This document shows, piece by piece, positions 3,922 through 32,252 of a stretch of 37,954 nucleotides of DNA. Position 1 is the first letter of the stretch, and each line of letters opens with the position of its first letter. The stretch spans positions 1 to 37,954 of the forward strand of contig JAENYQ010000029.1 of NCBI GenBank assembly GCA_016841675.1, written 5' to 3'. The stretch is from Desulfotomaculum sp. Its GTDB lineage: Bacteria; Bacillota; Desulfotomaculia; Desulfotomaculales; Desulfallaceae. Below the pieces are notes generated by a model, which saw nothing but the letters and a program-made list of their open reading frames with translations, was not told the DNA's origin and did no database searches. The translations under genes and the position numbers were made by a program.

Positions 3922-3938
3922 GGCGCTCTCCCCTCCTT

Positions 3939-4430: not shown

Positions 4431-4443
4431 AGCTCATCCCTCC

Positions 4444-5313
4444 TTACACGTGTCCTTCATTGATGGCTTTACGTAATGCGCGCTTGGTAAATACCCTGAC
4501 CATATCCCTCCGATACTCTGCAGAACCGCGGATATCATCAATCGGTTTGCATTCGGTGGATGCGCAAACACCTACTTCTTCCAACAAATCATCACTGATA
4601 GCTTTACCTATAATCATAGCCTCTGCTTTTGGTGCCCTCATGGGTACCGGGGCGACAGCGCCCAAAACAATCCTGGCATCCTTACATACATTACCATCCA
4701 TGGTAACCGCAACAGCCACTCCCACAACAGCCAGAGCACCCGAACGACGTAGGCCAAATTTTATATATGTGCTGCCTGTGCAAGACTGGTCGGGAATTAC
4801 TATTTGGGCAATTATTTCATCGGGGGCAAGCAGTGTTTTACCGGGGCCGACAAAGAATTCCTCCAACGCCATAACCCTTTCACCCTTTGTCCCCACCAGA
4901 GTTATTGATGCGTCTAGTGCCATTAATATGGGTGGCAGGTCTGCGGAAGGTACTGCATTTGAAATATTTCCGCCTATGGTGCCTACATTTCTAATTTGAT
5001 TGTTGGCCATATGATGGGCGGCTTCACATATGGAAAGATATTTTTCCTGCAGCAGCTTAGAGTTACAAATGGCATTGTGTGTAGCCCTGGCTCCTATTAG
5101 TACGCCTTTACCCTCTTCATATTCGATATTGGATAATTGCTCAAGCTGTTTTAGCGAGATAAGTACTGCCGGTGCGACTAGACCATGTTTCATTTTATTC
5201 AACAGATCGGTTCCCCCCGCAAGCACTTTGGCCACCTGGCCTTTTTCCGCCAGCAATGCACAGGCTTCCTGTATTGTGGCGGGCATATGATACTCGAAAT
5301 CCGGTAGATACAT
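4444..5313 (-). CDS. Molybdenum hydroxylase 1, FAD subunit, lacking the HcrB-type [4Fe-4S] insert
   Basis: A 289-residue CoxM/XdhB-type FAD-binding subunit. FAD motifs AGGTD (32-36) and TIGGN (112-116) are clear. In classical HcrB (about 324 aa) the segment after the TIGGN motif holds an insert of roughly 40 residues with four cysteines for an extra [4Fe-4S] cluster. Here the chain passes directly to [11 protein letters not shown], so that cluster is absent. This matters because the cluster is thought to carry electrons to the flavin in the reductive direction. Start ATG with AAGGAGG upstream; first gene of the operon, with the promoter at 5388-5416. Confidence 0.88.
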   Translation of the reverse strand: MYLPDFEYHMPATIQEACALLAEKGQVAKVLAGGTDLLNKMKHGLVAPAVLISLKQLEQLSNIEYEEGKGVLIGARATHNAICNSKLLQEKYLSICEAAHHMANNQIRNVGTIGGNISNAVPSADLPPILMALDASITLVGTKGERVMALEEFFVGPGKTLLAPDEIIAQIVIPDQSCTGSTYIKFGLRRSGALAVVGVAVAVTMDGNVCKDARIVLGAVAPVPMRAPKAEAMIIGKAISDDLLEEVGVCASTECKPIDDIRGSAEYRRDMVRVFTKRALRKAINEGHV

Positions 5314-13792: not shown

Positions 13793-13816
13793 ATAAACAC
13801 CCCTTTCTACAGATTT

Positions 13817-14311
13817 CTACTGTTCATCGGCCGCAACCAATACAGCTTTGACAATATTGACATAGCCCGTGCAGCGGCAAAGGTTGCCCGCGATTGCCGT
13901 CCGCACTTCCTGTTCCGTCGGGTGCGGGTTTTGGGTGAGCAGCGCCTTGGCCGACAATACCATACCGGGCGTGCAGTATCCGCACTGGATGGCTGCATTT
14001 TCAATAAACGATTCTTGGATTCGATCGAGTTTATTGTTCTGAGCTACTCCTTCAATAGTGGTAATTTCGTGGCCGTCTGCTTCCACCGCCAGTACTATAC
14101 ATGAGTTCACCGGCTTGCCGTCCATTAGAACTGTGCATGAGCCGCAATCGCCCAATTCACAACCTTTTTTGGTTCCGGTTAGATCTATTTCTTCACGCAA
14201 AAATTTTACCAACAGGGTATTGGCTTTTATCACCCTGGTATAGCTGTCCCCATTGATGTTTAGTGTCACTAAATATCTTTTTATGCCGTTATTATCAACA
14301 ACTACTTGCAT
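13817..14311 (-). CDS. hcrC: Molybdenum hydroxylase 2, [2Fe-2S] subunit (HcrC-like)
   Basis: A 164-residue subunit with all eight cluster ligands: C51, C56, C59, C71 for the plant-type cluster and C110, C113, C145, C147 for the second. It is very similar to the copy at 3939. Start ATG 14311 has AGGAGGG upstream. The 14-base gap to the FAD gene and 24-base gap to the Mo gene indicate one transcript. Confidence 0.92.
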
Positions 14312-14325
14312 TAATACATCCCTCC

Positions 14326-15195
14326 TTACACATGACCATTATTAATCGCTTTACGCAAAGCTCTCTTTGTAAATACCCTGACCATGTCCCTCCGGTATTC
14401 CTCAGAACCGCGTATATCCGAAATGGGGTTACATTCAGTGGACGCGCATACACCCACTTGCTCCAGTAATTCATCAGTTATAGCATTCCCGATCATCATT
14501 GCCTCAGCTTTTTTAGCTCTCATTGGTACAGGAGCCACCGCGCCAAGTGCAATACGGGCATCCTTACAAATGTTTCTATCCATTTCAACTGCTACTGCCA
14601 CCCCTACAACCGCAAGTGCACCCGAACGACGCAGTCCGAATTTTATGTACGTGCTTCCGGTAAAGGAATTATCCGGGATGACTATTCCAGTAAGTAACTC
14701 GTCCGGGGCAAGGTGTGTCTTTCCGGGGCCGGTAAAGAATTCTTCCAGAGGCATAACCCGCTCACCATTTGTACTGACTAGTGTTAATAAAGCACCCAGG
14801 GCAATGAATATTGGCGGTAAGTCGGCTGACGGAACAGCGTTAACAATATTGCCTCCAATAGTGCCCACATTTCTAACCTGGTTATTAGCCATATGTTGGG
14901 CAGCCTCACATACTGAAAGATACTTCTCTTGAAGTAGTGAGGAATTAGAAATAGCATTGTGGGTTGCCATGGACCCAATAACTACGCCTTTGCCAGACAC
15001 ATAATCAATAGAAGTTAGTTGGTCTAGTTTTTTTAGTGAAATTAGCACTTCCGGGGCCATTAATTCATGCTTCATTTTATTTAGCAGGTCGGTGCCCCCC
15101 GCAAGCACTTTGGCTCCAGGACCCTTTTCAGCTAGTAAAGCACAGGCATCCTGCAAACTGGCGGGAATGTAGTAATCAAAGTCGGGTAGATTCAT
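14326..15195 (-). CDS. Molybdenum hydroxylase 2, FAD subunit, lacking the HcrB-type [4Fe-4S] insert
   Basis: A 289-residue FAD subunit, roughly three-quarters identical by eye to the copy at 4444. AGGTD (32-36) and TIGGN (112-116) mark the FAD site. As in copy 1, the chain passes straight from TIGGN to [10 protein letters not shown] with no four-cysteine insert, so the extra [4Fe-4S] cluster of classical HcrB is missing. Start ATG 15195 with AAGGAGG. It is the first gene after the promoter at 15258-15287. Confidence 0.88.
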
Positions 15196-17119: not shown

Positions 17120-17710
17120 TTAAGATTGAATATTTAGCACTACTCCACGCATTTGATTTCCTTCCCAGCGGTGGAATAACTGGTGTTCAATGCCAAATTG
17201 ATCAAGGGCTTTGCCGACGGTCTGATTGACAATATCATCAATCGTTTTTGGGTGGTGATAAAAAGCCGGCACCGGCGGCAAAATGGTTCCACCAATTTCA
17301 GCCAATGTAACCAACAGCCTTAAGTGTCCTATATGCAACGGTGTCTCACGTACAATTACCAGCAGCTTTCTCTTTTCCTTCAGCGTTACATCCGCGGCGC
17401 GGACCAGCAGGTTGTCATTGTACGAATTAGCCATTGCAGATAAGCTTTTAATGGAACAGGGAGCGACAATCATGCCGTCATGCTTAAAGGAACCACTGGC
17501 AATGGTAGCGCCGATATTCTCGTTTTCGTAAACATAATCCGCAAGCGCTTCCACATCGTTGATGCGGTAATCCGTTTCAGTGTCTATAGTTCTTTTAGCA
17601 CTTTTACTGAGCACCAGATGCGTCTCAACCCGGCATTGGCGCAGGGCTTCAAGTGCTCTGATCCCATAAATGGCACCACTGGCGCCGGATATTCCAACAA
17701 CGATTTTCAT
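17120..17710 (-). CDS. ubiX: UbiX-type flavin prenyltransferase
   Basis: A 196-residue flavoprotein of the UbiX/Pad1 family, which prenylates FMN to make the cofactor of UbiD decarboxylases/carboxylases. GISGASGA at the N-terminus binds FMN phosphate, and RETPLH further on is the family signature. I start it at ATG 17710, 10 bases after AAAGGAGG (17728-17721); a 32-residue upstream extension has no ribosome site. It is encoded near ubiD, so it probably supplies prFMN for the carboxylation step. A strong hairpin (17770-17810) precedes it. Confidence 0.92.
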   Translation of the reverse strand: MKIVVGISGASGAIYGIRALEALRQCRVETHLVLSKSAKRTIDTETDYRINDVEALADYVYENENIGATIASGSFKHDGMIVAPCSIKSLSAMANSYNDNLLVRAADVTLKEKRKLLVIVRETPLHIGHLRLLVTLAEIGGTILPPVPAFYHHPKTIDDIVNQTVGKALDQFGIEHQLFHRWEGNQMRGVVLNIQS

Positions 17711-17769
17711 GGTAACAAAACCTCCTTTGGGGGCACGGCATATAACCGGTGCGAATTTGATATGATGTG

Positions 17770-17810
17770 TTACTTGCCTCCGGATGTATATCCACATTGG
17801 AGGCAAGTAA
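17770..17810. other. Strong hairpin between the CoA ligase and ubiX genes
   Basis: A perfect 12-bp stem, TTACTTGCCTCC (17770-17781) with GGAGGCAAGTAA (17799-17810); the loop contains GGAT-GTAT-ATCC. There is no T-run on the minus strand, so it looks more like an RNA processing or stability element between co-transcribed genes than a terminator. Confidence 0.5.
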
Positions 17811-17835: not shown

Positions 17836-19473
17836 TTATAACATCTTTTCTAACTCTGCCTTAAGGACTTTCTTGTCTACCTTTCCAGAATCGCCTACAG
17901 TCGGTATATTTTCCACGATTTCCAAACGTTCCGGCAACTTGAAAGAGGCTAGTTGTTTTTCCTTCAAAAAAGAAACCATCTCTTCAAACGTGAAGACTGT
18001 ACCAGGTTTGGTGACAACAAATACACACGCACGCTCTCCCAATTCTCTGTCTGGATAACCAACAATAGCCACTATTTTAACCTTTGGATGCTCTTGCAGC
18101 AACCCTTCTACCTCCGCCGGGTAGATATTCTGGCCACCTCGGATAATCATATCTTTGGCCCTGCCCATAATCCAAAGACAACCTTGATCCCATTTGACAA
18201 TATCCCCGGTGGTGGCCCATCCCTCACTGTCAAAGACGGTGGCGGTGGTTTCATAATCGCGGTAGTAACCGGCCGGAGAATTGGGTCCTCTGAACCACAG
18301 CTGACCTGGTTCGCCAGGCCCAACAACATTACCGTCATCGTCGATGAGCTTAACTTCGTTGCCCGCTAGCGGTCTTCCTACGGTCCTTCTTCTTAAATCT
18401 GCCGGATCGTCCACCCTGCACCCGGATACGGAACCCACATCCTGAGTGCCCAGATCACTTGTAATAACGCCGCCAAACGTACTTTCGGCCGTCTGTCCCA
18501 CGTCTGGAGGAAGGTAGCCGCCGGCCGAGCGAATAAAGCGCAGGGAGCTAATGTCGTACTTATCCTTCGGTTGCTCAAGCATCCGGATCAGGTGGGTAGG
18601 AACAACCCCGATGCACGTCGCCTTTTCTTTCTGGATCAAATCGAGTGCACTTTCGGCAGTAAATTCTTCAAGCAACACGGTTTTCGCTCCTACTATAGGA
18701 GCAGCGAAATATGTCAAAGTACCCGCCGCGCCTCCGGCAAAGGGGGCAATAGCAGCGGTAGTATCCTCCACAGTAAGCTTCCAGATATCAACCCGGCCCT
18801 TGGCCGTGCAAAGCCGCGGTGCAATGTTCCATTCTACCAGCTTAGGCAGTCCAGTTGTTCCGCTTGTGCTGGTGAGCATCGCCATGTCCCTGAAAGGGTC
18901 AAACCGTCGGTCATCTAAAACTGTTAACTTTTCTTCCGGCACCGGCTCCTGTAAAAGCTGGAGCAAGGAATATGTGCCCTCCGGAGCACCGGCAGGGACA
19001 TCTTCGTCAAGGAGGAAAATATGCTTAAGATCAGGGGATAGTTTACGGAGGTCATTATACATTTCCAGATAGTTAAAGTTTCTGTAGGTGTTGGGAATAA
19101 CTACTGCCGAAGCGCCTGTTTTTTCAATCATGTACGATAATTCCTTTTGACGCATATAAGCATATACAACAAGGGAAATCAGTCCCGCGCGTTCCGCGGC
19201 AATCCTAGCCAGAAAAGCGTTGACATCATTGGGCGCCTGAATAATTATCCGATCGTATTTCTGCAGGCCCAGCTCAACCCAACGGTAGGCCATCCGGTCG
19301 ATTAAGTCTTTAGCCTGCGCCCAGGTTACCCGATGACGCGAATCCACAAGGGCTTCCCGATCAGGAATTTCTTTAGCGTTTTTGGCCCAGTAGTCGTAAA
19401 AAGTCTCGTCAGTCCAATAACCATTATCCTTAAATTCCTTAATCATATCTTCTGTATAACGCATTACTTTCAT
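17836..19473 (-). CDS. AMP-forming aryl acid-CoA ligase (probable hydroxybenzoate-CoA ligase)
   Basis: A 545-residue acyl-adenylate synthetase. The P-loop TSGTTGLPK (about 203-215), the TGD and GRAKDMI motifs and the C-terminal catalytic lysine in SGKVDKK (K531) are intact. Overall layout, including the opening N-G-Y-W and the end K-L-P-E-R-L-E, is closest to the EntE/DhbE aryl acid branch by recall. In this setting the likely reaction is hydroxybenzoate + ATP + CoA giving hydroxybenzoyl-CoA, feeding the Hcr-like enzymes. It lies between the Tm-1-like gene and ubiX on the same strand. GAGGAGGG precedes the start; a second in-frame ATG four codons on is also possible. Exact substrate not provable from sequence. 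Confidence 0.85.
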   Translation of the reverse strand: MKVMRYTEDMIKEFKDNGYWTDETFYDYWAKNAKEIPDREALVDSRHRVTWAQAKDLIDRMAYRWVELGLQKYDRIIIQAPNDVNAFLARIAAERAGLISLVVYAYMRQKELSYMIEKTGASAVVIPNTYRNFNYLEMYNDLRKLSPDLKHIFLLDEDVPAGAPEGTYSLLQLLQEPVPEEKLTVLDDRRFDPFRDMAMLTSTSGTTGLPKLVEWNIAPRLCTAKGRVDIWKLTVEDTTAAIAPFAGGAAGTLTYFAAPIVGAKTVLLEEFTAESALDLIQKEKATCIGVVPTHLIRMLEQPKDKYDISSLRFIRSAGGYLPPDVGQTAESTFGGVITSDLGTQDVGSVSGCRVDDPADLRRRTVGRPLAGNEVKLIDDDGNVVGPGEPGQLWFRGPNSPAGYYRDYETTATVFDSEGWATTGDIVKWDQGCLWIMGRAKDMIIRGGQNIYPAEVEGLLQEHPKVKIVAIVGYPDRELGERACVFVVTKPGTVFTFEEMVSFLKEKQLASFKLPERLEIVENIPTVGDSGKVDKKVLKAELEKML

Positions 19474-19628: not shown

Positions 19629-20876
19629 TTACACATTTCCGTCTGCTTTCATTACTTCCTTAAAGGCTTTGATTACTTCTTCAGCAAACCTTTGTTCCTC
19701 TAAGTTGGCATCCACTTCTTTTATTTCGATGTCATCTTTTAGGAGTTTTCTTAGTTCATCTATAAAAATGCGGTCGGTTTCAGGTTCATACAGAACGCTT
19801 CCCTCTCCGTCTATGCCAGACCAGCCTTTGGTTGGTACTATGATTTTAACCGGCCCTCTGGCCTGGTTTAGCTTTCCTGCAAAAGCTTCTGCAACCTTAA
19901 CCAATTCATCGGGAGATACTCTTAAGAATGTACGCAATGAATCCATATCGTATCTTTTACGGTTGTAATAGTCAGGCTTATATTTGCTTTTTGGAGGTGT
20001 CATTAGGTTCACCAAACAAGGGGCAATAATTTGGGGGATGCCTGCCTTGCCGGCCGCTTCAAGCCTGAGCGGACCAGCCGCCCTGGTGCCGCCGAGCAGT
20101 TCCTCTCCTACCGCGCCCGGGGCCAAGTCGATTACTGCGCTAAAAATACCTTCTTTATCTATTAATTCCTCCATGGCCATGTCCGCTACGCCTGTAGCGG
20201 AAAAACCAATTACCTGGTACCCTTCCTGCTCCAGGCTCAGCCGCACATGAGTAGCGCATTTTTCACACATATTCAATAGGGTCATGGCTACAAGCGGCTT
20301 GCCTTGCTTTCTGCCGGCCCCCACGGTCACGCCGGCTTCTTTCATCTCAACCATGCCCAAGATACTTCCGGCAGCCCGATCCAGCACGTTGCACATGAGA
20401 TCATTTAAGCTGGTAAAATCTATTACCGAGTGCATTATCGCTATATCGGCAGTGCCAAAATAGCGACTGGTCAAACCCCGTGCAGCCGCCACACTGGAAA
20501 CCATCAGCTTAGGGACGCCAAAAGGAAGTGCTTTCATTACACCGGTACCCATTATGGTGCCAGTGGCTCCACCGATGCTGATTATTCCGACCAATTTATT
20601 TAGATCATACAGCTCTTTAGCCTTTTTCCCCGCACCCTCGACCATTAACTGCATTAATTTAGGCCTGTTTTTCGATAGGTTCTCGCCATCAATTTCCTTA
20701 CCTGAAGCGGCAAGCACTTCTTCACGCGTGATATCTGCGGAAATGCTAGGCGAATCTTTTGTGCCAATATCCATGATTAATGCATGGTAACCTTTTTTAT
20801 CGATTTGCTCTTTTAGGTATTTCGTCTCTTCACCTTTCGTATCCAGGGTACTCACTATCATTACTGTTTTTTCCAT
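19629..20876 (-). CDS. Tm-1-like ATP-binding family protein (UPF0261)
   Basis: A 415-residue member of the Tm-1-like/UPF0261 family, recognised by the start STLDTKGEE, the D-I-G-T segment, GGATGTIMGTGVM and the C-terminal P-T-K-G-W-S-G-I-D. The plant relative Tm-1 binds ATP and a viral replicase; the bacterial function is unknown. I begin at ATG 20876 behind GGGGTGAA rather than 22 codons upstream, where no ribosome site is seen. It sits inside the phenol carboxylation gene set, between ubiD and the CoA ligase, which suggests a role with an ATP-dependent step there. That role is a guess. Confidence 0.85.
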   Translation of the reverse strand: MEKTVMIVSTLDTKGEETKYLKEQIDKKGYHALIMDIGTKDSPSISADITREEVLAASGKEIDGENLSKNRPKLMQLMVEGAGKKAKELYDLNKLVGIISIGGATGTIMGTGVMKALPFGVPKLMVSSVAAARGLTSRYFGTADIAIMHSVIDFTSLNDLMCNVLDRAAGSILGMVEMKEAGVTVGAGRKQGKPLVAMTLLNMCEKCATHVRLSLEQEGYQVIGFSATGVADMAMEELIDKEGIFSAVIDLAPGAVGEELLGGTRAAGPLRLEAAGKAGIPQIIAPCLVNLMTPPKSKYKPDYYNRKRYDMDSLRTFLRVSPDELVKVAEAFAGKLNQARGPVKIIVPTKGWSGIDGEGSVLYEPETDRIFIDELRKLLKDDIEIKEVDANLEEQRFAEEVIKAFKEVMKADGNV

Positions 20877-20978
20877 CAAGTTCACCCCTCTATGCCAACA
20901 CCCTGGCGATTTGTCGCGCTCTATTCTACGGTTCTTGCTCATCGTCCATTCAACGGAAGTTCTTCACTGTTGCTCTTT

Positions 20979-21077: not shown

Positions 21078-22487
21078 TTAGAAACCATACTCCTGCCACT
21101 TGCTTCGAACCGTGTTGGCCATATCCTTATCAAGATAAATCTCAAACGGTTTTCTTTCCCATTCAAAGGGTATGCAGGCATCAATAATAATCCTGGAGCA
21201 AATTTCCCGGGCGTTAATCGGCAGCGCAGGGTCAAGCGGAGTGGAGCGTCCCCTATTAATAATCTGGGTGCGTGCAACCGGATCGTAGCGCATGCTCATG
21301 GCCCATAAAACCTTGGTCCAGTCATCGGCTGGAATGTCTTCTTCGACTACGATTACACCTTTTAAGCCGTAGTGACCGGTGGTGGTGGATATAACCGCTG
21401 TGCCTACATGCATTGAGTGACCGGGATACATTTGCTTCACCGACACAACGGCCCAGAAACGGCCGCCGGATTCGGGTGGCAGATAGACCGACTGAATTCC
21501 AGGTACATGCATATTTTCCAGGTCAGTCCACATGGTGGCTGTGCGGTTCAGCGACTGGATCATATGGGTATCGGTAATCGGTTTTCCAACCGTGGTAGAC
21601 CACAGGATGGGATTGTTACGGTGATACACTCGTTTGACATTGATAAACGGCTTGGGCCACTCTTCACTTTGCTTGCCGGAATAGTAACCGGTGTATTCAC
21701 CGAACGGACCTTCCTGACGCCGCTCCACCGGGTCGATTTCACCTTCAATGATAATCTCCGCATCGTACGGCAGCGGTAGTCCGGTCAGGTCGCTAATGAA
21801 GACCTTGGCCGGCTCGTTACGCAGTGAGCCGATGATATCGTATTCAGAAATGTCGGCCGATACCAGGGTGCTACCTACCAGGAAGTTCAGGGGGTCGCCG
21901 CCAATAATCGCTGCTACCGGCATGGGCTTGCCTAGTTCCTTGTAGCGGTTCATGTGGAAATCAGCGTGCTTGCCCTTAATAATCTGGACGCCCACACTTT
22001 TTTCATCTAGCACTTGCATCCGATAGGTGCCCAGGTTGACCCATTCACTGTCTGGATCTTTGGTTACCAGAGCCACCGCGGTGCCAATGAATCTACCGCC
22101 ATCCTCGGGGTAGAATTTGGGCACAGGGAAATTAAACAGGTTTATGCTTTCGCCTTCCACGACGTTTTCAAAGACGGGGCCTGTGCTAACGATTTCCGGT
22201 GGAATTGTTCTTTTCGTGATCAGTTTCATCCAGCTTCTGGCAAGGTCGCATAGCGATGCATTTTGCGGCTGGCCCAGGGCGATGGCTAAGCGTTTGACTG
22301 TGGTAAATGCGCTGGTAAGGACGGGAATGTTATAATCTTTAATATTTTGAAAAAACAGCGCCGGTCCTTTAGCCTCCTCGTTAAGCTTGGCAATGTGGGA
22401 CAATTCAAGATCCCAGTCTACCTTCGCCTCAATCCGCTTAAACTCGCCGGCTTCTTCACATAGTTTGATAAAATCTCTTAAATCCAT
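21078..22487 (-). CDS. ubiD: UbiD-family prenyl-FMN-dependent (de)carboxylase, probable phenylphosphate carboxylase
   Basis: A 469-residue UbiD-family enzyme, full length. The catalytic triad is visible: R156 in GTYRMQV, then E259 and E264 in RRQEGPFGEYTGYY, spaced five apart as in Fdc1 (R173, E277, E282). The family uses prenylated FMN and divalent metal to add or remove CO2 on unsaturated or aromatic carbon. Located after both phenylphosphate synthase halves and with ubiX nearby, it most likely carboxylates phenylphosphate to 4-hydroxybenzoate. Thauera needs two UbiD-like subunits, a HAD-type subunit and a small subunit for this; none of those extras is present here. Start ATG 22487 behind AAAGGAG. 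Confidence 0.88.
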   Translation of the reverse strand: MDLRDFIKLCEEAGEFKRIEAKVDWDLELSHIAKLNEEAKGPALFFQNIKDYNIPVLTSAFTTVKRLAIALGQPQNASLCDLARSWMKLITKRTIPPEIVSTGPVFENVVEGESINLFNFPVPKFYPEDGGRFIGTAVALVTKDPDSEWVNLGTYRMQVLDEKSVGVQIIKGKHADFHMNRYKELGKPMPVAAIIGGDPLNFLVGSTLVSADISEYDIIGSLRNEPAKVFISDLTGLPLPYDAEIIIEGEIDPVERRQEGPFGEYTGYYSGKQSEEWPKPFINVKRVYHRNNPILWSTTVGKPITDTHMIQSLNRTATMWTDLENMHVPGIQSVYLPPESGGRFWAVVSVKQMYPGHSMHVGTAVISTTTGHYGLKGVIVVEEDIPADDWTKVLWAMSMRYDPVARTQIINRGRSTPLDPALPINAREICSRIIIDACIPFEWERKPFEIYLDKDMANTVRSKWQEYGF

Positions 22488-22541
22488 AATAATCTCCTTT
22501 CTCAAACCTTTTTTTGTATTGCTTTTTTTGTATTTGATTGA

Positions 22542-23609
22542 TTATTTTATTTTTTTGCCAGTTATGAGAGTGCTGGCAATATGATTAAGCGCGCTTACGT
22601 TTGGTTTTACCAAGGGTTTGGCCTCCTTTTTGTTCCATACAGTCTCCGGCCTGGTTTGCAATAAGATAATGTTTCGGGGAAAGGGGAGATCCTTATCTAT
22701 GGCCCATTCAATATCCTGTGGAAGTTTATTATTTGCCTCCACCATTTTACCGAGCCCGCCCAGTTGAACAATCTCTTCATCGGTAAGGCATGGTGCGTTT
22801 TGCCTGTCCGGTTCGACTTCTAACGGCACCACGTCACCTTCCGGCCCGTAGACCATTTCGATGCCCTTGTTGCATATTATCCGCTTTGTAATAGCCAGCG
22901 TTACTTTGTTTAGTGCAAATTTATCAGGTGTGACCTGGCCGCTAACCAAACTTTCACCCAGCCCCCAAGCTGCTTCAATAAAAATGGTCGAGCGGTCCCC
23001 GTTTAAGGGATCTAGAGTAAACATAACCCCGGCTGCCTTGGCATTGACCATCTTAAGCACGGCTACGCCAATGGGGGAACTTTCCACAGGCATGGCGCGC
23101 TGCAGCCGATAATGCATAGCGCGGCCGTTAAAGGAACTGGCCCAAACTTTTTTTACCCGCTTTAAGAGTTCTTCCTCACCCTGAATATTGAGGAATGTGT
23201 CAAATTGGCCGGGCATGCTCACCGGGCCGCTCGAACGCACGGCCACTTTTACATTTTTTACATTGCTCCGTTCACAAAGTTCTCGGTAGTAATTCAGGAT
23301 ATAATCTTGAATATCTCCGGGCATTGGCCTTGATTCAATAAGCTGGCAAATATACTCACTTGCCTGGTCAAACAGGCTGACATCTTCTTGCAACCTGTCT
23401 TTTATTCCCTCAAAGTAACTAGATATGGCCTTACCAACCCCGGTTTCGTCAATAAACTTCTCGTATGCTTTAAGAGAAATGGCGAAGCCAGGGGGAACCG
23501 GTAAACCAGCTCTTATCATCTCGCCAAGGCCTTTGCACTTTCTTCCTGCAATGAAGACATCGTCCTTGTCAAGCTCACGAAGCCAGTAAACATAATTTTG
23601 GGAATCCAC
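22542..23609 (-). CDS. ppsB: PEP synthase N-terminal-like ATP-grasp protein; probable phenylphosphate synthase 40-kDa subunit
   Basis: A 355-residue (about 40 kDa) free-standing version of the ATP-grasp nucleotide-binding part of PEP synthase/pyruvate phosphate dikinase. Visible: KCKGLGEM near the start, VAVRSSGP, the MFTLDP segment, AAWGLGE, and the closing LLQTRPE. It has neither the phosphohistidine nor the PEP domain. In Thauera the phenylphosphate synthase is split in exactly this way: a 40-kDa protein like the PEP synthase N-terminus phosphorylates the histidine of a 70-kDa partner. The partner is the next gene upstream (23828). Start GTG 23609 behind AAGGGGGG. It is followed 54 bases later by ubiD. 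Confidence 0.87.
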   Translation of the reverse strand: MDSQNYVYWLRELDKDDVFIAGRKCKGLGEMIRAGLPVPPGFAISLKAYEKFIDETGVGKAISSYFEGIKDRLQEDVSLFDQASEYICQLIESRPMPGDIQDYILNYYRELCERSNVKNVKVAVRSSGPVSMPGQFDTFLNIQGEEELLKRVKKVWASSFNGRAMHYRLQRAMPVESSPIGVAVLKMVNAKAAGVMFTLDPLNGDRSTIFIEAAWGLGESLVSGQVTPDKFALNKVTLAITKRIICNKGIEMVYGPEGDVVPLEVEPDRQNAPCLTDEEIVQLGGLGKMVEANNKLPQDIEWAIDKDLPFPRNIILLQTRPETVWNKKEAKPLVKPNVSALNHIASTLITGKKIK

Positions 23610-23827: not shown

Positions 23828-25666
23828 TTAGTCTTGTAAAATCTCGACTTTCCCTGTATGGCCATCCACTTTAATTCTTTGGCCGGTTTTAATCGCCGCA
23901 GTTGCATAACCTGAACCTACCACAGCAGGTAAGCCGTATTCGCGGCAAACGATGGCGGCATGGGACATAATCCCACCTACGTCTGTGACCACCGCTTTTA
24001 CCTTGACAAATATAGGAGCCCAACTTGGCGATGTAGTTGGTGCCACCAGGATTTCACCTTCTTGTAACAACCCCAAATCCGCTGGACTGCGCACCACCCG
24101 GGCAATTCCTTCAACTATACCGGGCGAACCGGGATGGCCTTGTAACTTGCTCATATCTTCTGCCTTTACCGAACCAGCGTCCAGCCAGTCCGACAGGCGG
24201 TCGGTGGTAATCCCCCACAGCGTAATGGTGAACGGTTCGGTTACAACTTCAGGCGGCATCCCCAACGCCGGCGGTGGGGTATATTCCCGGAATTTTTCTA
24301 TTACCCCTTTGCGCCACTCGATTTCCTGAGGCCAGTAGGAAGGTCCGCAGGCTTTTACCCCGGTTCCCCAGGCGCACACCAGATCGTAAAGTGCCTGCCC
24401 GATTTCAAAACGGTTTAAGTACCAGATGTCCTCTATATCCTTAATCATCCCGTGATTGACAAAAATTGCGGACAGTTCTCTCATTTTCCCGTAAAACAAA
24501 CTATGGGACCAATGTTCAACATAAAACGTATGCTCTTCAACAAAAGGAAACACTTTCTGGGAAATAGCCAACAACTCGTTGTAAGCATCCTTGTCTTCTT
24601 GAGTCCGCAAAAGCGAACCGTATTCGGCAACGATCCTATCTCTTTCCTCAACTAGCTTCTGAGTCGGTCGCTCCAGGCTTTCCCCTTTTTGTGCTTTTTT
24701 AATGTAACTTTTAATGGCCATGAATGGAATTTCAGGGCGGTCAAGCCAACAGTAGTGGTCGTGATACCACCCCGTTCCGGAAGACATGTAGAACCAAGGT
24801 TTTTGTGCCTGTTCATACTGTTCAAGCCATTTTTTACCTGCCTCGTTTTCACCGAGGGCGGTGATAATTTCAGCCGGAGTGGATTCATCCTTGAAAAAGT
24901 CGGTTACTTCCAGGGTTATGGCTGACTTGGCCAGTTTTCTTAATTGCATGTCCGGTTGAAAGAGGATAACGTCAATCCCGGCAACCATCCTGGTAATCGT
25001 GCCATCATCTATACCCGGAAAAGCTTTCCGGCAAAAATCAGCAAAGGTAACGAAGGCAGCGTAACCGAGATTCAAAAACTCAAAATGGTACTGCCAAACC
25101 AGCAACGCGCGGTCAATCAAATGGTCATATTTTTTTACGAGTTCGTAACCGCTACTGCGGCCAACTCCCTCATGCACAATGGAGATATCCTCCATGTCCG
25201 GCAAGTCTTTAAACTCAATGTTGTCAATTTCCTTAATCAGCGTTTCCATCTTACTCTTCCAACGGCCATATAAATCTTCCCAATTTTCGTAATAATATCC
25301 AGCTCTTTGTAAGAAATGCTGCAGTCTTTCTTCAACCTGCTTCGGGTCAGTAACCGGCACAGGCGATATATAAATATAGCCGTTTGTTATACGGTGATCG
25401 ACACCAAATGCCGGCGGAACCATGAAAATACGGGTATTGTATTGCGATAGGCCGAGATACCACGCTTCATCCCAAATCAAATCAAACGGGTACATTGGTT
25501 CCGGGTAATGAAGTCCGTCGTAATACCAGAGCATGCTGTTCTCGTAATCTTCCCTTTCCTTATCCATGCTAAATCGGTAGTAATACGGGTACATTCTTTC
25601 CCAGCCTTCCGTACCAGGAATAACAGGAACCTCACCCGGGTTCATGAATTTACTGTCTGCGGACAT
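23828..25666 (-). CDS. ppsA: PEP synthase central-domain-like protein with phosphohistidine domain; probable phenylphosphate synthase 70-kDa subunit
   Basis: A 612-residue (about 70 kDa) protein whose last 100 residues form the PEP-utilizer swivelling phosphohistidine domain (ILVAPTTSPSWAP, then GGIMSHAAIVCREYGLPAVVG). The phosphorylated histidine is H569, the position I recall for the Thauera phenylphosphate synthase protein 1. The N-terminal 500 residues are rich in tryptophan and tyrosine and lack an ATP-grasp domain, as expected for the phenol-binding half. Reaction by family: phenol + ATP + H2O giving phenylphosphate + AMP + Pi, together with the 40-kDa protein. The stimulating CBS-domain third subunit of Thauera is not found. 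Start ATG behind AGGAGGGG; a perfect palindrome precedes the ribosome site. Catechol or a cresol could be the true substrate. Confidence 0.85.
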   Translation of the reverse strand: MSADSKFMNPGEVPVIPGTEGWERMYPYYYRFSMDKEREDYENSMLWYYDGLHYPEPMYPFDLIWDEAWYLGLSQYNTRIFMVPPAFGVDHRITNGYIYISPVPVTDPKQVEERLQHFLQRAGYYYENWEDLYGRWKSKMETLIKEIDNIEFKDLPDMEDISIVHEGVGRSSGYELVKKYDHLIDRALLVWQYHFEFLNLGYAAFVTFADFCRKAFPGIDDGTITRMVAGIDVILFQPDMQLRKLAKSAITLEVTDFFKDESTPAEIITALGENEAGKKWLEQYEQAQKPWFYMSSGTGWYHDHYCWLDRPEIPFMAIKSYIKKAQKGESLERPTQKLVEERDRIVAEYGSLLRTQEDKDAYNELLAISQKVFPFVEEHTFYVEHWSHSLFYGKMRELSAIFVNHGMIKDIEDIWYLNRFEIGQALYDLVCAWGTGVKACGPSYWPQEIEWRKGVIEKFREYTPPPALGMPPEVVTEPFTITLWGITTDRLSDWLDAGSVKAEDMSKLQGHPGSPGIVEGIARVVRSPADLGLLQEGEILVAPTTSPSWAPIFVKVKAVVTDVGGIMSHAAIVCREYGLPAVVGSGYATAAIKTGQRIKVDGHTGKVEILQD

Positions 25667-25681
25667 GGTTTACCCCTCCTT

Positions 25682-25699
25682 TAACAAATTTATTTGTTA
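25682..25699. promoter_or_regulatory. Perfect palindrome upstream of ppsA, operator candidate
   Basis: TAACAAAT-TT-ATTTGTTA is an 8-bp perfect inverted repeat just upstream of the ppsA ribosome binding site. On the minus strand a -10-like TATAAC overlaps its upstream end. It may be bound by the adjacent PucR-type regulator. Confidence 0.5.
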
Positions 25700-25811
25700 T
25701 ACTAATGTCCATTTGGTTTAATAAAGTCCCTTATGACTTTGTAAATTCAGTATGCTTAATCTCTAAGACCACCACCTTGTTCATTACTGCGTGTACATCA
25801 AATGGCATCCC

Positions 25812-25840
25812 TTGACACTGGCATGTCGTAGTGGTAAAAT
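25812..25840 (+). promoter_or_regulatory. Sigma-A promoter of a candidate small RNA
   Basis: TTGACA (25812-25817), 17-base spacer, TAAAAT (25835-25840). The -35 is perfect and the -10 has one mismatch. No protein gene follows on this strand; a terminator follows about 60-110 bases on. Confidence 0.6.
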
Positions 25841-25845
25841 TGGGC

Positions 25846-25953
25846 ATAGCAAAGCTGTAGGTGCTGGATATAATAAGCCATGCGCATGCAGCCTTAGCGC
25901 CGCACCGATTTGAACCTTGGCCAAGGGGGAATCGGTTGCGGCAATTTTTGTTT
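25846..25953 (+). ncRNA. Candidate small RNA between the phenol regulator and ppsA
   Basis: A roughly 108-base transcript is predicted from the promoter at 25812-25840 to an intrinsic terminator. The terminator stem GCCGCACCGATT (25899-25910) pairs with AATCGGTTGCGGC (25930-25942) with one bulge, contains an inner CCTTGG-CCAAGG, and is followed by TTTTT (25945-25949). A perfect CATGCGCATG palindrome lies in the 5' part. No open frame of note. It does not match SRP RNA, 6S, tmRNA or a tRNA as far as I can see. It is transcribed towards the 3' end of the regulator gene and away from ppsA. Confidence 0.5.
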
Positions 25954-25975: not shown

Positions 25976-27982
25976 TCAAATTCCTTCAATTAATTTCAGG
26001 GCTAGGTGTACTAGAAGAATGGTTTCCGAATTGGTTAAATCTATGTTACCAATCTCTGATATCCGCTTTAATCTATATTTCATGGTGGCGGAATTCAAAA
26101 AACCATTTCGAGAAGCCCTCTGAAGGTTGCAGTTATTATTGAAGTACAGTGTTAAAGTTTCGACCAACTGCGATTTGTTTTTTTCATCATAGTCAATAAG
26201 AGGACCAATTACCTTACGGATAAATTCACGAAAACGGTCAGCGTCTATGTTTATAACACTAAATATTCCTAATTTTTCATATGCCAAACAGCGGTTTTTG
26301 CGATTTAGTGCTTTTGCTATATCGATGGTGGCGCGGGCCTCATGATAGGAGTTGGCAAAATCTTTTAACCGACTGCAGGGTGAACCGATACCAACCCACC
26401 ACTTGTATTCAGGCAAATGCGTTTTTAGTTCGTTTTCTATTTTTTGTAAAACACTTGTAAGGTTATCGAGCTTGGGGTCCGCTTCATCTTGAACCGGCAG
26501 CAATCCAATTGTTTTTTTCCGGTTGCCACTTAAAAAGAAGCCGGGACAAATGCTTTCAAAAACATAGCGCACTGCTTCAAAGAAGCTTTCCGTCATGCGC
26601 GCTTGTCTATATTGCCTCTTTTCATCATCTACAACTTCCTCAAGCACAATGTCTATGGACATCAAACGATAGGTTTTGCTTAAATCAAGCCCTAATTGAT
26701 TAGCACGCCATAAAACAATTTCCTCGCTTTCATACTTGCCCGCCAGTAATGCTTCAAAAAAGTTCTCCCGGATCCTTAGCTCGGTCTCAAAAGAGGCTTT
26801 TTGCTTTAACATTTCCAAAGCTATCACCGTTGCGGCATGCTCCAAGGCAATACAGTCCAGCCTGCTCAATGAATTTTCTTCCAGGGCGGTCACGAATCCA
26901 AGGTGATTATTGCCAGCAATGATGGGAACCACCGCCATATCTTTTAAGCCATCGGCGACCAGTTCGGGGAACATAAGCCTAAAGTAGTGAGTGCTGGAAT
27001 CCATAGTCAGAAGAGCTTGGCATACCGCTGAATCGGCGGCCACATTCCTCCAGACCAGTTCAATATCATCCTCGCCATCATCTTCTTTTTTTAGTAATGG
27101 TTTGGAGCAAGATAGGACCTGAAAGAAACGGTCGGCCACCAGTACTGACCGGTCAATAATATGGGCCAGGTTTCCAGTAATTTTGGCAAGCCCTTGTCCT
27201 TCCAGTACCAAAGATGTAAGCTGATTGTGAATAGCTGCGGATTTTTGCATCGCTGCCTTTTCATGATACAGCAAATTATTAACTCTACTCAGTTCCGAAA
27301 TTTTTTCTTTCAGTATTTCATTGGTGCGTTCTAGAACAGAATTACTCATCCCCCGCCAAAGGGTAACACGCTTCCGCTCTTCTTCCGCCAAGCACTGCTC
27401 TAAGTCCTCAATATTGCGGAAAGCGGCGCCATCCCATGCTTCAGTATTGCGCAATTCAAATTGGCAATGGGGGTCTCCCATACCCTGACACATTGTTTCA
27501 ACACAAATTACCTGTCGCCCCAAAAAACCGGTACTAAAACCACTGGCGTAGCCACTCAATGTCCAACAAACGGGGTCTTTAGCCGGGCCGAAAAGACGTA
27601 AATGATGCTCGGCTTCATACGAGTTGCGCCAGATGCCCCGCATTAAGAAAGTCCCTTTCTGCCGGTTATATTCAAGAGTTTTAGTAGAGGCGTGCACAAT
27701 ACCCTCTAACTTGTGCATTAACGGCCCGGCCAGCATCCAGTTGGCATCGTTTTCAAATTCGAAAGAATTGCGCAAGGTAGTTGCGTCATTAAAGCCACAG
27801 CGGTAGCCAAAACGTGCTAGAATACCGCGAACAATGTCTTCCCCCAGGGTATGGGTCATTTCTTTACGTAATTCACAAAGGGCATTCGAATTAAAAATTA
27901 ACATCCTGTTGCCGCAAAAATTGATTATGCCATCATCCTTGTTTATGTCGAGAAGTTCCGTTAGTCTTAATTCCTGTTTCAC
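25976..27982 (-). CDS. Phenol-sensing regulator: XylR_N/V4R sensor fused to a PucR-type DNA-binding output
   Basis: A 668-residue chimeric regulator. Residues 1-175 form a XylR_N plus V4R aromatic sensor. The phenol contacts and zinc ligands I recall from MopR (H106, W134; C155, E178, C181, C189) are all found at a constant offset of 16: H90, W118, C139, E162, C165, C173. A coiled linker (about 190-250), a GAF-like region (250-400), a CdaR/PucR GGDEF-like domain (about 420-560) and a PucR HTH (about 605-665, with SATMKYRLKRI) follow. No sigma-54 AAA+ domain is present, unlike DmpR/XylR, so it should work with ordinary promoters. Start GTG 27982 behind AGGAGGG. It lies upstream of the pps-ubiD genes and is their likely activator. 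Confidence 0.88.
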   Translation of the reverse strand: MKQELRLTELLDINKDDGIINFCGNRMLIFNSNALCELRKEMTHTLGEDIVRGILARFGYRCGFNDATTLRNSFEFENDANWMLAGPLMHKLEGIVHASTKTLEYNRQKGTFLMRGIWRNSYEAEHHLRLFGPAKDPVCWTLSGYASGFSTGFLGRQVICVETMCQGMGDPHCQFELRNTEAWDGAAFRNIEDLEQCLAEEERKRVTLWRGMSNSVLERTNEILKEKISELSRVNNLLYHEKAAMQKSAAIHNQLTSLVLEGQGLAKITGNLAHIIDRSVLVADRFFQVLSCSKPLLKKEDDGEDDIELVWRNVAADSAVCQALLTMDSSTHYFRLMFPELVADGLKDMAVVPIIAGNNHLGFVTALEENSLSRLDCIALEHAATVIALEMLKQKASFETELRIRENFFEALLAGKYESEEIVLWRANQLGLDLSKTYRLMSIDIVLEEVVDDEKRQYRQARMTESFFEAVRYVFESICPGFFLSGNRKKTIGLLPVQDEADPKLDNLTSVLQKIENELKTHLPEYKWWVGIGSPCSRLKDFANSYHEARATIDIAKALNRKNRCLAYEKLGIFSVINIDADRFREFIRKVIGPLIDYDEKNKSQLVETLTLYFNNNCNLQRASRNGFLNSATMKYRLKRISEIGNIDLTNSETILLVHLALKLIEGI

Positions 27983-28201: not shown

Positions 28202-28438
28202 CTACTCCCAATCTTTCCACACATCTGGTTTATAACCCACTGTAGCCCGTTTACCATTTCCGACAATAGGTGATTTATAAAGTTTCGGATTTTTAAAAAG
28301 AATCTCTTCCGCAACGCTTCCACTTCCAAGGCGCTGTAAATTAAACTCCTTATACTCTTTCGCTTTTGGGTTTATTAGATCTTTAAGACCTATGGAAGCT
28401 CTAATCTCTAAATTCCTTCCACATCGTAAATCCTCCAA
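28202..28438 (-). pseudogene. Truncated ArsC/Spx-family gene fragment
   Basis: About 65 codons match the C-terminal part of ArsC-family proteins: IGLKDLINPKAKEYK, then LFKNPKLYKSPIV and GYKPDVWKDW. The N-terminal half with the catalytic cysteine is missing. The apparent TTG start is part of a GGAGG ribosome site; the real ATG after it (28425) reads only seven codons before a stop in another frame. This looks like a decayed gene. Confidence 0.65.
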
Positions 28439-28465: not shown

Positions 28466-28507
28466 GTGACTAATAGGGGTAATTCAAGAATCGCCCCTAT
28501 TGGTCAC
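28466..28507 (-). terminator. Hairpin at the end of hydroxylase 3 operon
   Basis: A 14-bp stem with one G-T pair, GTGACTAATAGGGG (28466-28479) with CCCCTATTGGTCAC (28494-28507). It includes the stop codon of the large subunit. The minus-strand sequence after it has a short TTTT, so termination is plausible but not certain. Confidence 0.5.
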
Positions 28508-30803
28508 TTAATTTCTTAACCGCCCCCTCCTTCTGCATACCCATAAACACTTTTTCAGGCGTTACCGGAAGCTTTGTTATTCTAACACCCACTGCATTAT
28601 AAACCGCATGTACGATGGCCGGCGCGGGCGTATTGGTTACAACTTCGCCGATCGACTTGGCCCCAAAGGGACCTGTGGGTTCGAAACTTTCTTCGAAGGC
28701 CACCCTTATATTTTTAATGTCTTTGCGGCATGGAATCTTGTACTGCATAAAAGAATTTGTCTGCAGAACGCCTCTTTGGTCATATCTTACTTCCTCAAAC
28801 ATCGCCATCCCGATGCCCTGAACAATGCCACCTTCTGTCTGGACTCTAGCCAAATTTGGATTGATCACCGTTCCGCAGTCCACTACCGCCACATAATCAA
28901 TTAAATCTACCTTGCCGGTCTCTTGATCCACTTCCACCTCGGCAAACCCGGCCACAAAGGGTGGTGGCGACACCGGACTCCCATAGGTGGCGTTGCCGAC
29001 CAACTGAAGTTTGCCGGTCCCCAGAATCAGAAGTTCAGCCAGTTTGGTCAAGCTGATGGATTTATCTCCATCAATGGACCTGATGGTTTTTCCGTCAAAA
29101 TCCACTTCATCAGGCGGCACTTTTAACAAGACGGCCCCGTTTTGCATAATTTGCTGCTTTAAATCTTCTGCCGCTTTAACCACGGCCATTCCCGTGACAT
29201 AAGTCGTGCTGGAAGCGTAAGAACCCGGGTCGTACGGGGAAACATCCGTATCCGCGGCATTGACAATAATGTTTTCCACCGCAGTTTCTAAAATTTCGGC
29301 AGCCATTTGGGCCAGTATAGTATCGCTTCCCGTTCCCATGTCCGTCGAGCCAATAAGAAGCGTAAAGTTGCTGTCATCATGCAAACGTATTTCGGCAGAG
29401 GCGGTTTCCAGACCAGCGATCCCCGACCCCTGCATGGTTACTGCCATGCCCACCGCTCTTACTTTATTACTGCCTGCATCTCTCCTAGGGTACTTTTCGT
29501 CCCATCCGATCATTTCCTTACCCTTTTCTATGCACCGGTGCAGGGAAGAACTGCCTAAAGGATGTTTGGTGTGGACCAGAGATGTTTCACCTGCCCTGAT
29601 TAAATTTTTCAACCGCATTTCCGCCGGGTTCAGGTTCAGTTTTTCCGCCAGCTTGTTGACGGCTGACTCAAGGGCAAAAGTTCCTTGGGTGGCTCCATAG
29701 CCCCGCAAAGCTCCCGCCGGCATTTTATTCGTATATACTGCATGGCCCATATAACGGACAGCATTTGTTTTATTATATAATGGAAGAGTTTTTTCTCCCG
29801 CCACCGCAAATACCGTGGGCGCATGCTCCCCGTAGGCCCCTGTGTCGGATAAACCCTGAATATCAACCGCCCTGATGTACCCTTCCTGATCGGCTCCCAG
29901 TCTCACCTTTAATCGCATTGCATGGCGGCTATTTGTAGAAGTAAAGGTTTCCTTTCTTTCATACACAATCTTAGCCGGTTTCCCTGTCTTTAAAGTAACA
30001 ATGGCCGGAAATATTTCCGCTACAGCAGTCTGCTTGCCTCCGAAACCTCCGCCTATTCGCGGTTTAATGACCCTGATCCTACTTGCAGGTATTTGTAATG
30101 CTCTGGACAGTATTCTTCGCACATGAAATGGAATCTGGGTGGAACTTACCACCACAAGCCTGTTAGTATGATCAAGGTAACTGAAAGCACGGTACGTTTC
30201 CATCATGGCTTGGGCCTGGGCTTGGGTGTAATAGGTTTCTTCCACTAGCACCGCGCACTTGCGCAATTCTTCCTCGACATCACCAACTTCCACCTTGTGC
30301 ATTGATGCAATATTCTTTTCCTGTTTCAACCCGATATCGAAATTGCAGTGCAGATCATCTTCAGGATGAACGATGGATGGATGTCCGACCGCCTTTTCAA
30401 AGTCCAAAACAGGGTCCCATACCTCATATTCAACCTTGATCAGGCCCGCGGCTTTTAACGCCGTTTTTTCACCTGCGGCAGCGATGATGGCCACTTCATC
30501 GCCCACGTACCGGACAACTTGATCCAATATTAACCGGTCATAAGGCGAAGGTTCCGGATAGGATTGCCCGGCTGATGTATATCTGATATTGGGCACGTCC
30601 TTGTAAGTAAGAATACACTCAACACCATCCAGTTTTTCCGCCTTGGATATGTCAATGGATGTTATTTTGGCGAAGGCGTGCGGGCTCCGAAGTATTTTGA
30701 CTACCAGAGTATTTGGCATGGCCAAATCATCCGTATAAACGGGTTTGCCGGTGGCGATGGCTATGCCATCTAGTTTTGCAATACCCTTACCGACGATATG
30801 CAT
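28497..30803 (-). CDS. Molybdenum hydroxylase 3, large Mo-cofactor subunit (xanthine dehydrogenase family)
   Basis: A 768-residue molybdopterin subunit, clearly a different branch from the two HcrA-like copies. It has GGGFGGK, RGYG in place of RGHG, MGTGSD in place of IGQGSD, and a C-terminal AKSIGEV with the catalytic glutamate at E720. These features fit the XdhA/aldehyde or N-heterocycle hydroxylase branch. Typical role: oxidative hydroxylation of a heterocycle or aldehyde with water as the oxygen source. The substrate cannot be told. It begins 2 bases after the FeS gene stop and has only a weak ribosome site, which suggests translational coupling. Confidence 0.85.
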   Translation of the reverse strand: MHIVGKGIAKLDGIAIATGKPVYTDDLAMPNTLVVKILRSPHAFAKITSIDISKAEKLDGVECILTYKDVPNIRYTSAGQSYPEPSPYDRLILDQVVRYVGDEVAIIAAAGEKTALKAAGLIKVEYEVWDPVLDFEKAVGHPSIVHPEDDLHCNFDIGLKQEKNIASMHKVEVGDVEEELRKCAVLVEETYYTQAQAQAMMETYRAFSYLDHTNRLVVVSSTQIPFHVRRILSRALQIPASRIRVIKPRIGGGFGGKQTAVAEIFPAIVTLKTGKPAKIVYERKETFTSTNSRHAMRLKVRLGADQEGYIRAVDIQGLSDTGAYGEHAPTVFAVAGEKTLPLYNKTNAVRYMGHAVYTNKMPAGALRGYGATQGTFALESAVNKLAEKLNLNPAEMRLKNLIRAGETSLVHTKHPLGSSSLHRCIEKGKEMIGWDEKYPRRDAGSNKVRAVGMAVTMQGSGIAGLETASAEIRLHDDSNFTLLIGSTDMGTGSDTILAQMAAEILETAVENIIVNAADTDVSPYDPGSYASSTTYVTGMAVVKAAEDLKQQIMQNGAVLLKVPPDEVDFDGKTIRSIDGDKSISLTKLAELLILGTGKLQLVGNATYGSPVSPPPFVAGFAEVEVDQETGKVDLIDYVAVVDCGTVINPNLARVQTEGGIVQGIGMAMFEEVRYDQRGVLQTNSFMQYKIPCRKDIKNIRVAFEESFEPTGPFGAKSIGEVVTNTPAPAIVHAVYNAVGVRITKLPVTPEKVFMGMQKEGAVKKLSDQ

Positions 30804-30805
30804 AT

Positions 30806-31255
30806 TTAGGCCACCCCCAGATACTTCTTAACTGCCCGTAGCTGTCCCATATAGCCCGTACATCGGCATAAATTTCCGGTTAGGTAATGTTTGATTTCTT
30901 CTTCAGTAGGATTCTTTAGTTCGTTTTTCATGGCCAGTACAGTCATGATGAAACCGGGACTGCAGAAACCGCACTGGTCTGCGCCTTCGGCCCCAAGTAC
31001 TCGGGCAAACTCCTCGGCTTCCTTTGGAACTCCTTCAATTGTGGTAATACTTTTACCGTGCACCCGGAAAGAGAGAGTAGAGCAGGACAAGGTGGGTTTC
31101 CCGTCTATCCACACGGTACACAGGCCGCAACTGGAAGTGTCACAGCCTTTTCTTAAGCTTAGCAAGCCAATAGCCCTTAAAGTATCCGCCAGTAATTCGT
31201 CGTTTTCTATCTCCAGGCTAGTCTTTTTATTGTTGATGGTGACTTCTATCTGCAT
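30806..31255 (-). CDS. Molybdenum hydroxylase 3, [2Fe-2S] subunit
   Basis: A 149-residue two-cluster subunit with C38, C43, C46, C58 for the plant-type cluster and C95, C98, C130, C132 for the second. It is shorter and divergent from the two HcrC-like copies. It overlaps the FAD gene by 10 bases and abuts the Mo gene, so the three form one operon. Confidence 0.92.
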   Translation of the reverse strand: MQIEVTINNKKTSLEIENDELLADTLRAIGLLSLRKGCDTSSCGLCTVWIDGKPTLSCSTLSFRVHGKSITTIEGVPKEAEEFARVLGAEGADQCGFCSPGFIMTVLAMKNELKNPTEEEIKHYLTGNLCRCTGYMGQLRAVKKYLGVA

Positions 31256-32043
31256 TCCAATACCTCCGTAACCGCCCTTTTAACTAGTACCTGGCATATT
31301 GCTTTTCGATATTCCGCCGTACCCCTAATGTTGGTTCCAAAAGATAACTCCTCTGCCGCCATATTGGCTGCCTGGTCAATAGTTTCAGGGCTAAGATTCG
31401 CTTGGGATAGATTTTCTGAAGCTATGGGGGCAATTTTAGCCCTTTGCGGCCTGGCTCCGACAACAATGCGCCACCCGTCATGCAAATTGGAAACGGCGAC
31501 ATTTAAAATAGGATAATCAGTTGCCGAATTTCTTATATTGTGATAAACGGCTTTTCTTGGACTTTTCTTAATCAATATGCTGGTGAGAATATCCTTGGCG
31601 CTGGATTGAGCCAAAAATTGATCCAGTGGCATTCTTCCGCCTTTAAACAACTCTACCTCTGTATCCAAGGCCAATAACGGTGTTATCAAATCAGAGAAGC
31701 CGTACTTAGCATAAACGGTAGCCCCGACAGTAGCAATATTTCTAAATTGAACGCCCATTATATAGCTGACTGATTTGGATAACACTCCGTTAAAATAATC
31801 AGCTAAAAGAGGACTAGTCTCAACAGTTCTAAATGTTGTCAGTGCTCCTATCTCGATATGCTCATCCAGCTCTTTTATATAATCCAAGTTAAGTTTTGAC
31901 AAATCTATAGCGGTACCAATCTTTTGGGAGCCTAATCGCAAAAAGGCGCAACCGCCAAGAACCGTGCTGCTTTTATTAGCTGTCAATACTTGATATGCTT
32001 CAGCAATGGTATCTGGTTGTACTAAATCGAGTATAGTAAACAC
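31246..32043 (-). CDS. Molybdenum hydroxylase 3, FAD subunit
   Basis: A CoxM/XdhB-type FAD subunit of 265 residues from GTG 32043, which has AAGGGGG 8 bases upstream and gives the usual start (V/M)FTILDLVQP; an ATG at 32079 would add 12 residues without a ribosome site. FAD sites are altered: GGCAFLR replaces AGGTD and TVGATVYA replaces TIGGN, so flavin binding may differ. No [4Fe-4S] insert. First gene of the operon. Confidence 0.8.
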   Translation of the reverse strand: MFTILDLVQPDTIAEAYQVLTANKSSTVLGGCAFLRLGSQKIGTAIDLSKLNLDYIKELDEHIEIGALTTFRTVETSPLLADYFNGVLSKSVSYIMGVQFRNIATVGATVYAKYGFSDLITPLLALDTEVELFKGGRMPLDQFLAQSSAKDILTSILIKKSPRKAVYHNIRNSATDYPILNVAVSNLHDGWRIVVGARPQRAKIAPIASENLSQANLSPETIDQAANMAAEELSFGTNIRGTAEYRKAICQVLVKRAVTEVLECR

Positions 32044-32252
32044 TTTTGGTTCCCCCTTAAACTCCGGTGCTAGTGGCATTGTAATCTACCGTGGCACCTA
32101 TTAGTAACCATCAGTTTCTAACAGCACTGGGATTTTTACGTGTGTTTTCTTCTGTTCTTTTAGATGATGAACTTCCTGGCATTTTTCTCTATTATGCGCC
32201 AGCGCTAACACTATTTACGATTGTCTTTTGCACTGCCCTATGCAATCTTTAT

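Follow-up and report, generated by a model that had tools for sequence, protein, structure and literature searches.

The gene at positions 25976–27982 (minus strand) of the window, that is, the whole stretch of 37,954 nucleotides from a Desulfotomaculum species that was analysed, encodes a protein of 668 residues that joins a sensor of the MopR/DmpR type to an output of the PucR type. We regard it, with a probability of about 0.68, as a sigma-54-independent, phenol-responsive activator of the pps-ppc genes, putative as to its ligand, its activating role and its use of an intergenic block as operator. The sequence itself establishes the domains, the conserved residues, the lack of an AAA+ domain, the syntenic gene order and an intergenic block that is conserved. 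For this reading we counted the gap-free homology to three solved phenol sensors and the retention of the His, the Trp and the zinc ligands, as judged from the alignments; against it we counted six changes in the predicted pocket, the near-identical pocket of a paralog (L049) and the occurrence of pps/ppc loci without an XylR_N sensor.

The regulator gene begins with a GTG codon preceded by an AGGAGG-type ribosome-binding site, rated good. Pfam profiles place XylR_N at residues 7–105 (100 bits, gathering score 23) and V4R at residues 118–178 (57.1 bits, gathering score 31), and the sensor module made of these two domains (residues 7–178; 27449–27964, minus strand) carries H90, W118 and the zinc ligands C139, E162, C165 and C173. 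A single-sequence AlphaFold model of the sensor alone (residues 1–192) reached a pLDDT of 45, too low for a superposition. The linker that follows (residues 187–245; 27248–27424, minus strand) lies, from the sequence and published work on DmpR (PMC7264223), at the site of the DmpR coiled-coil B-linker, and its helical nature and role are presumed. Beyond it come a weak CodY-type GAF match (residues 319–405; 23.2 bits, under the 29.5 cut-off) and the output module (25991–26728, minus strand), in which GGDEF_2 (residues 419–555; 65.1 bits) and the PucR helix-turn-helix HTH_30 (residues 606–664; 56.8 bits) both exceed their Pfam cut-offs. Among NCBIfam profiles, the output half matches best to that of the activator AdeR, under its cut-off. 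There is no Pfam match to a Sigma54_activat/AAA+ domain, a motif search found no GAFTGA, and the PucR N-terminal domain PF07905, present in the outgroup L067, is absent by Pfam. Pfam thereby bears out the earlier note, which had described a protein lacking the AAA+ domain and carrying GAF-like, CdaR-like and PucR helix-turn-helix regions on its C-terminal side, with the reservation that the GAF-like match is under cut-off; the search that it had proposed for XylR_N, V4R and PucR HTH recovered all three, each over its cut-off.

In the Protein Data Bank, the regulator matches best to the sensor domains of PoxR, DmpR/CapR and MopR (phmmer E-values of 8e-32, 2e-31 and 5e-29, respectively). Residues 13–186 align with residues 29–202 of MopR without a gap at an offset of 16, where 60 of 174 positions are identical against 20 at the next best offset, and a chance match of residues is excluded by this difference. 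The proposal that six MopR contact and zinc residues recur at one constant offset is confirmed, since all six are found at this offset with the GTG counted as residue 1. In an alignment of 33 rows (30 Bacillota sensors plus MopR, DmpR and PoxR), the Trp and the four zinc ligands (C, E, C, C) are invariant in 33 of 33 XylR_N/V4R sensors, whatever the neighbouring genes. Only the His varies among the six key residues, being replaced by Tyr in four sensors (L050, L056, L057 and L066). The invariant residues are therefore a signature of the family rather than of a ligand, and the six matches cannot be counted as six separate indications of phenol.

The surrounding genes speak for phenol more strongly than these residues do. 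The regulator gene lies upstream of, and on the same strand as, a set of phenylphosphate synthase and carboxylase genes, all on the minus strand: a PEP-utiliser mobile-domain protein assigned by domains and synteny as a phenylphosphate synthase subunit (ppsA-like, 23828–25666), a PPDK_N ATP-binding protein assigned by its domains as another subunit (ppsB-like, 22542–23609), a UbiD-type phenylphosphate carboxylase beta subunit (21078–22505; TIGR02724, 603.6 bits, cut-off 468.95), a UPF0261 protein that recurs in pps/ppc clusters, as seen from Pfam and from other loci (19629–20942), an acyl/aryl-CoA ligase-like AMP-dependent synthetase whose place next to ppc is conserved (profile match, 17836–19473) and a UbiX family flavin prenyltransferase (profile match, 17120–17806). 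The source bacterium is probably an anaerobic phenol degrader. An orthologue that is 80% identical occurs in genome G021, taken as Desulfotomaculum gibsoniae, with gene order and orientation kept, and published work reports growth of this species on phenol and the presence of these genes in it (PMC4148979). XylR_N-PucR regulators also stand at three more pps/ppc clusters (genomes G092, G382 and G072). In the order, XylR_N occurs in 4 of 7 genomes with a ppc-beta match over cut-off and in 9 of 106 others (p = 0.003), these genomes being related and not independent; in the phylum sample the figures are 3 of 7 and 4 of 391 (p = 1e-4, common descent ignored). Other pps/ppc loci have PucR-output regulators without XylR_N (the second regulator of G072, L005, G091 and G430), some pps loci have GAF domains in place of the XylR_N sensor, and at six ppc loci (G017, G059, G363, G388, G168 and the ppc contig of G234) no PucR-output regulator was seen in the stretch examined, some of these stretches being cut by contig ends. 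In A. aromaticum, a sigma-54 relative, PheR, controls pps-ppc (PMC10715001).

Further features surround this set in the window. Two xanthine-dehydrogenase-type molybdoenzyme subunit sets lie at 1624–5313 and 11510–15195 (minus strand), with a third large/medium pair at 28497–32079, and these are possibly 4-hydroxybenzoyl-CoA reductase-like. Between the regulator gene and the upstream molybdopterin dehydrogenase gene sits the remnant of an ArsC-family gene (28202–28399, minus strand), with 65 residues in frame matching PF03960 (E = 1e-8) and the start of the profile missing.

The sensor might instead bind another aromatic, such as cresol, 4-hydroxybenzoate, phenylphosphate or toluene, with pps-ppc still as its target, an alternative that we consider rather unlikely and that draws its support from the pocket. 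Among the 13 MopR pocket residues listed in PMC10715001, six are altered in the regulator (F99M, V114A, F132G, Y165F, Y176C and I191F); all six are ring-packing positions, at which the ring contacts of MopR are not kept, so another ligand may be preferred over phenol. The pocket is that of an XylR_N-type aromatic sensor and alone does not say phenol. Moreover, the p-cresol and p-ethylphenol sensors of A. aromaticum have the identical His/Trp pair (PMC10715001), and the paralog L049 keeps the His, its listed pocket differing from that of the regulator only at S150 (Ala). This alternative is opposed by the pps/ppc position conserved in D. gibsoniae, by the three further loci with XylR_N-PucR regulators and by the His itself, which is the phenolic-type residue, Tyr being found in the toluene/xylene sensor XylR (PMC7264223). 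What stands of the phenol inference in the earlier note is thus the part that the phenol-pathway context supports; the residue match does not serve as proof, given the family-wide residues, the His of L049 and the six pocket changes.

Two paralogs encoded in the source genome, L048 and L049, form the nearest group to the regulator in both trees (46–47% identity) and have the architecture XylR_N-V4R-GAF-CodY GAF-GGDEF_2-HTH_30 (domains checked on L048); they exceed the regulator by about 165 residues and one GAF domain, and sit upstream of benzylsuccinate-synthase-type genes. At L049 (6193–8691 and 9356–11974, plus strand), the paralog gene immediately precedes a TutD-like benzylsuccinate synthase (bssA-type) gene scoring 1478 bits, which suggests toluene or cresol degradation under a sensor of the XylR_N-PucR type. 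The paralogs at L050 (2748–4694, plus strand) and L057 (8877–10790, plus strand) have Tyr instead of the phenol-anchoring His, and their ligand is possibly an aryl-lactate or an aromatic amino acid derivative: L050 neighbours 2-hydroxyacid dehydrogenase and HGD-D dehydratase genes, and L057 an indolepyruvate oxidoreductase gene. Of the other Tyr-bearing sensors, L056 neighbours beta-oxidation genes and L066 is closely related to L050. L055 adjoins a 2-hydroxyacid dehydrogenase gene yet keeps the His.

Upstream of ppsA, a block at 25801–25952 (minus strand) is 75% identical over 152 nt to its counterpart in D. gibsoniae. It occurs as a single copy in each of these two genomes, and a third genome matched over 27 nt only (E = 0.005). 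From this conservation, the block would be the leading candidate site for an operator and promoter, a leader RNA being also conceivable, and it lies upstream of the stretch (25667–25800) that had been proposed for DNA binding. It holds a hairpin of about 12 pairs with an unconvincing fold z-score of -1.8, and neither Rfam nor ARAGORN gave a match in it; a riboswitch or a tRNA was dropped on these grounds. No -24/-12 promoter is recognisable before pps, the best candidate agreeing at 4 of 11 positions and not being conserved. Together with the missing AAA+ domain, this supports the earlier suggestion of a switch that would work without sigma-54, in a genome in which rpoN was found.

We propose that the regulator would act as a cytoplasmic one-component regulator. 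Its XylR_N/V4R sensor, presumed to be dimeric from solved relatives and stabilised by zinc at C139, E162, C165 and C173, would bind phenol or a closely related phenolic compound, whose hydroxyl H90 and W118 would hold. In DmpR, a coiled-coil linker relays ligand binding (PMC7264223), and by analogy binding may shift the linker (approximately residues 187–245), then the GAF-like and GGDEF-like domains and finally the PucR helix-turn-helix. The activated regulator would then switch on the pps-ppc operon, which starts at 25666, from a promoter of housekeeping type that needs no sigma-54.

The sign of this regulation is not fixed by sequence, and a repressor relieved by its ligand would suit the same arrangement; we hold this to be improbable. 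PucR, CdaR and AdeR are known activators, and AdeR is also the best, if sub-threshold, NCBIfam match of the output half. Still less credible is a degenerate sensor that binds no aromatic, with an output answering another signal: a sensor-less form at the same place in G091 and the GAF domains at some pps loci would fit it, but the zinc ligands, the His and the Trp are all intact, and sensor and output are conserved to a similar degree relative to D. gibsoniae (81% and 84%, respectively).

The phenol-responsive activator proposed here belongs to a wider family, which we surveyed in 113 genomes of the order and 398 genomes drawn from the phylum. XylR_N was found in 13 and 7 of these, respectively, and every XylR_N open reading frame long enough to judge in the Bacillota genomes sampled has a PucR output and none has GAFTGA. 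There are four XylR_N proteins in the source genome and six in D. gibsoniae. A scan of the contigs with the regulator protein as single query returned only three output-side relatives. Sensor and output trees both place the regulator with its D. gibsoniae orthologue and then with the paralogs near benzylsuccinate-synthase-type and related genes, the latter grouping being weaker in the output tree (80/75). This agreement indicates that the fusion is old and inherited; a recent one-off fusion is rejected by the same paralogs appearing in both trees and by an architecture found phylum-wide. The term chimeric used in the earlier note is hence apt for a DmpR-type sensor on a PucR-type output and not for a singular event, XylR_N proteins ordinarily having this form in the Bacillota genomes sampled.

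GAF-only regulators are nested in the same 12-member output clade as the regulator (99/94), which points to a putative exchange of sensors on the PucR-type output. A natural form without the XylR_N-V4R sensor is the pps/ppc regulator of G091 (L179:4062–5450, minus strand), whose relative in the sister species G092 (L061) keeps the sensor; the two are 82% identical over 45 residues, from residue 216 on, and no trace of a sensor was found upstream of the match start in the G091 form. On balance we favour the view that in Bacillota the XylR_N/V4R mode of aromatic sensing passed in its entirety from sigma-54 activators to outputs of the PucR type, with four paralogs in one genome (at phenol genes, two benzylsuccinate-synthase-type genes and one aryl-lactate-type cluster), and that modules (XylR_N-V4R, the same with GAF, or GAF alone) were swapped or lost on a common output at phenol loci.

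The regulator resembles the DmpR/MopR/PoxR/XylR group in its homologous sensor domain, its His/Trp anchor, its zinc site and its place beside phenol genes, and A. aromaticum PheR likewise stands beside pps-ppc; unlike that group, it has GAF-like, GGDEF_2 and PucR HTH domains in place of the AAA+ sigma-54 domain, and its ring-contact residues diverge. With the PucR/CdaR/AdeR family it shares the GGDEF_2 and HTH_30 output, whereas its sensor is XylR_N/V4R and not the PucR domain (PF07905, found in PucR proper) or a diacid-recognition domain. The likely published precedent is PheR of the Geobacillus stearothermophilus phe-operon, whose sub-domain architecture was described in 2008 as differing from that of DmpR and XylR; that paper notes the unusual sub-domains with no mention of PucR and leaves the regulatory mode for further work (PMC2590616). 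A counterpart on Parageobacillus thermoglucosidasius pNCI001 has the architecture XylR_N-V4R-GGDEF_2-HTH_30 and lies in a phenol hydroxylase operon in the order catechol 2,3-dioxygenase, tautomerase, two-component phenol hydroxylase, ferredoxin, 642 aa regulator and meta-pathway genes, which is the order of the G. stearothermophilus phe-operon (PMC2590616). Gene order and the common size of 642 aa make it likely that the two proteins are of the same kind. The pNCI001 protein is about 30% identical to the regulator and differs in serving an aerobic phenol hydroxylase pathway from inside the operon. The regulator has the arrangement that marks a PheR-like protein, XylR_N-V4R-GGDEF_2-HTH_30 in one open reading frame adjoining aromatic degradation genes, and plasmid records of P. 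thermoglucosidasius, Priestia megaterium and Peribacillus asahii list XylR N-terminal or V4R proteins that share this architecture. A literature search found no paper describing XylR_N or V4R fused to a PucR-type output. A likely member of the family has nevertheless been known since 2008 as PheR, and the fusion recurs across Bacillota.

Substrate sensing in Gram-positive phenol and toluene degraders is little described, and the XylR_N-PucR family provides named candidates and a natural comparison set, with His or Tyr at position 90 and differing neighbour pathways, on which both the specificity for ligands and signalling free of sigma-54 can be tested directly. A sensor for phenol with no need of sigma-54 would make an easier biosensor in Gram-positive hosts. 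If the sensor did move to PucR-type outputs as we favour, one His/Trp pocket may serve hydrocarbons as well as phenols.
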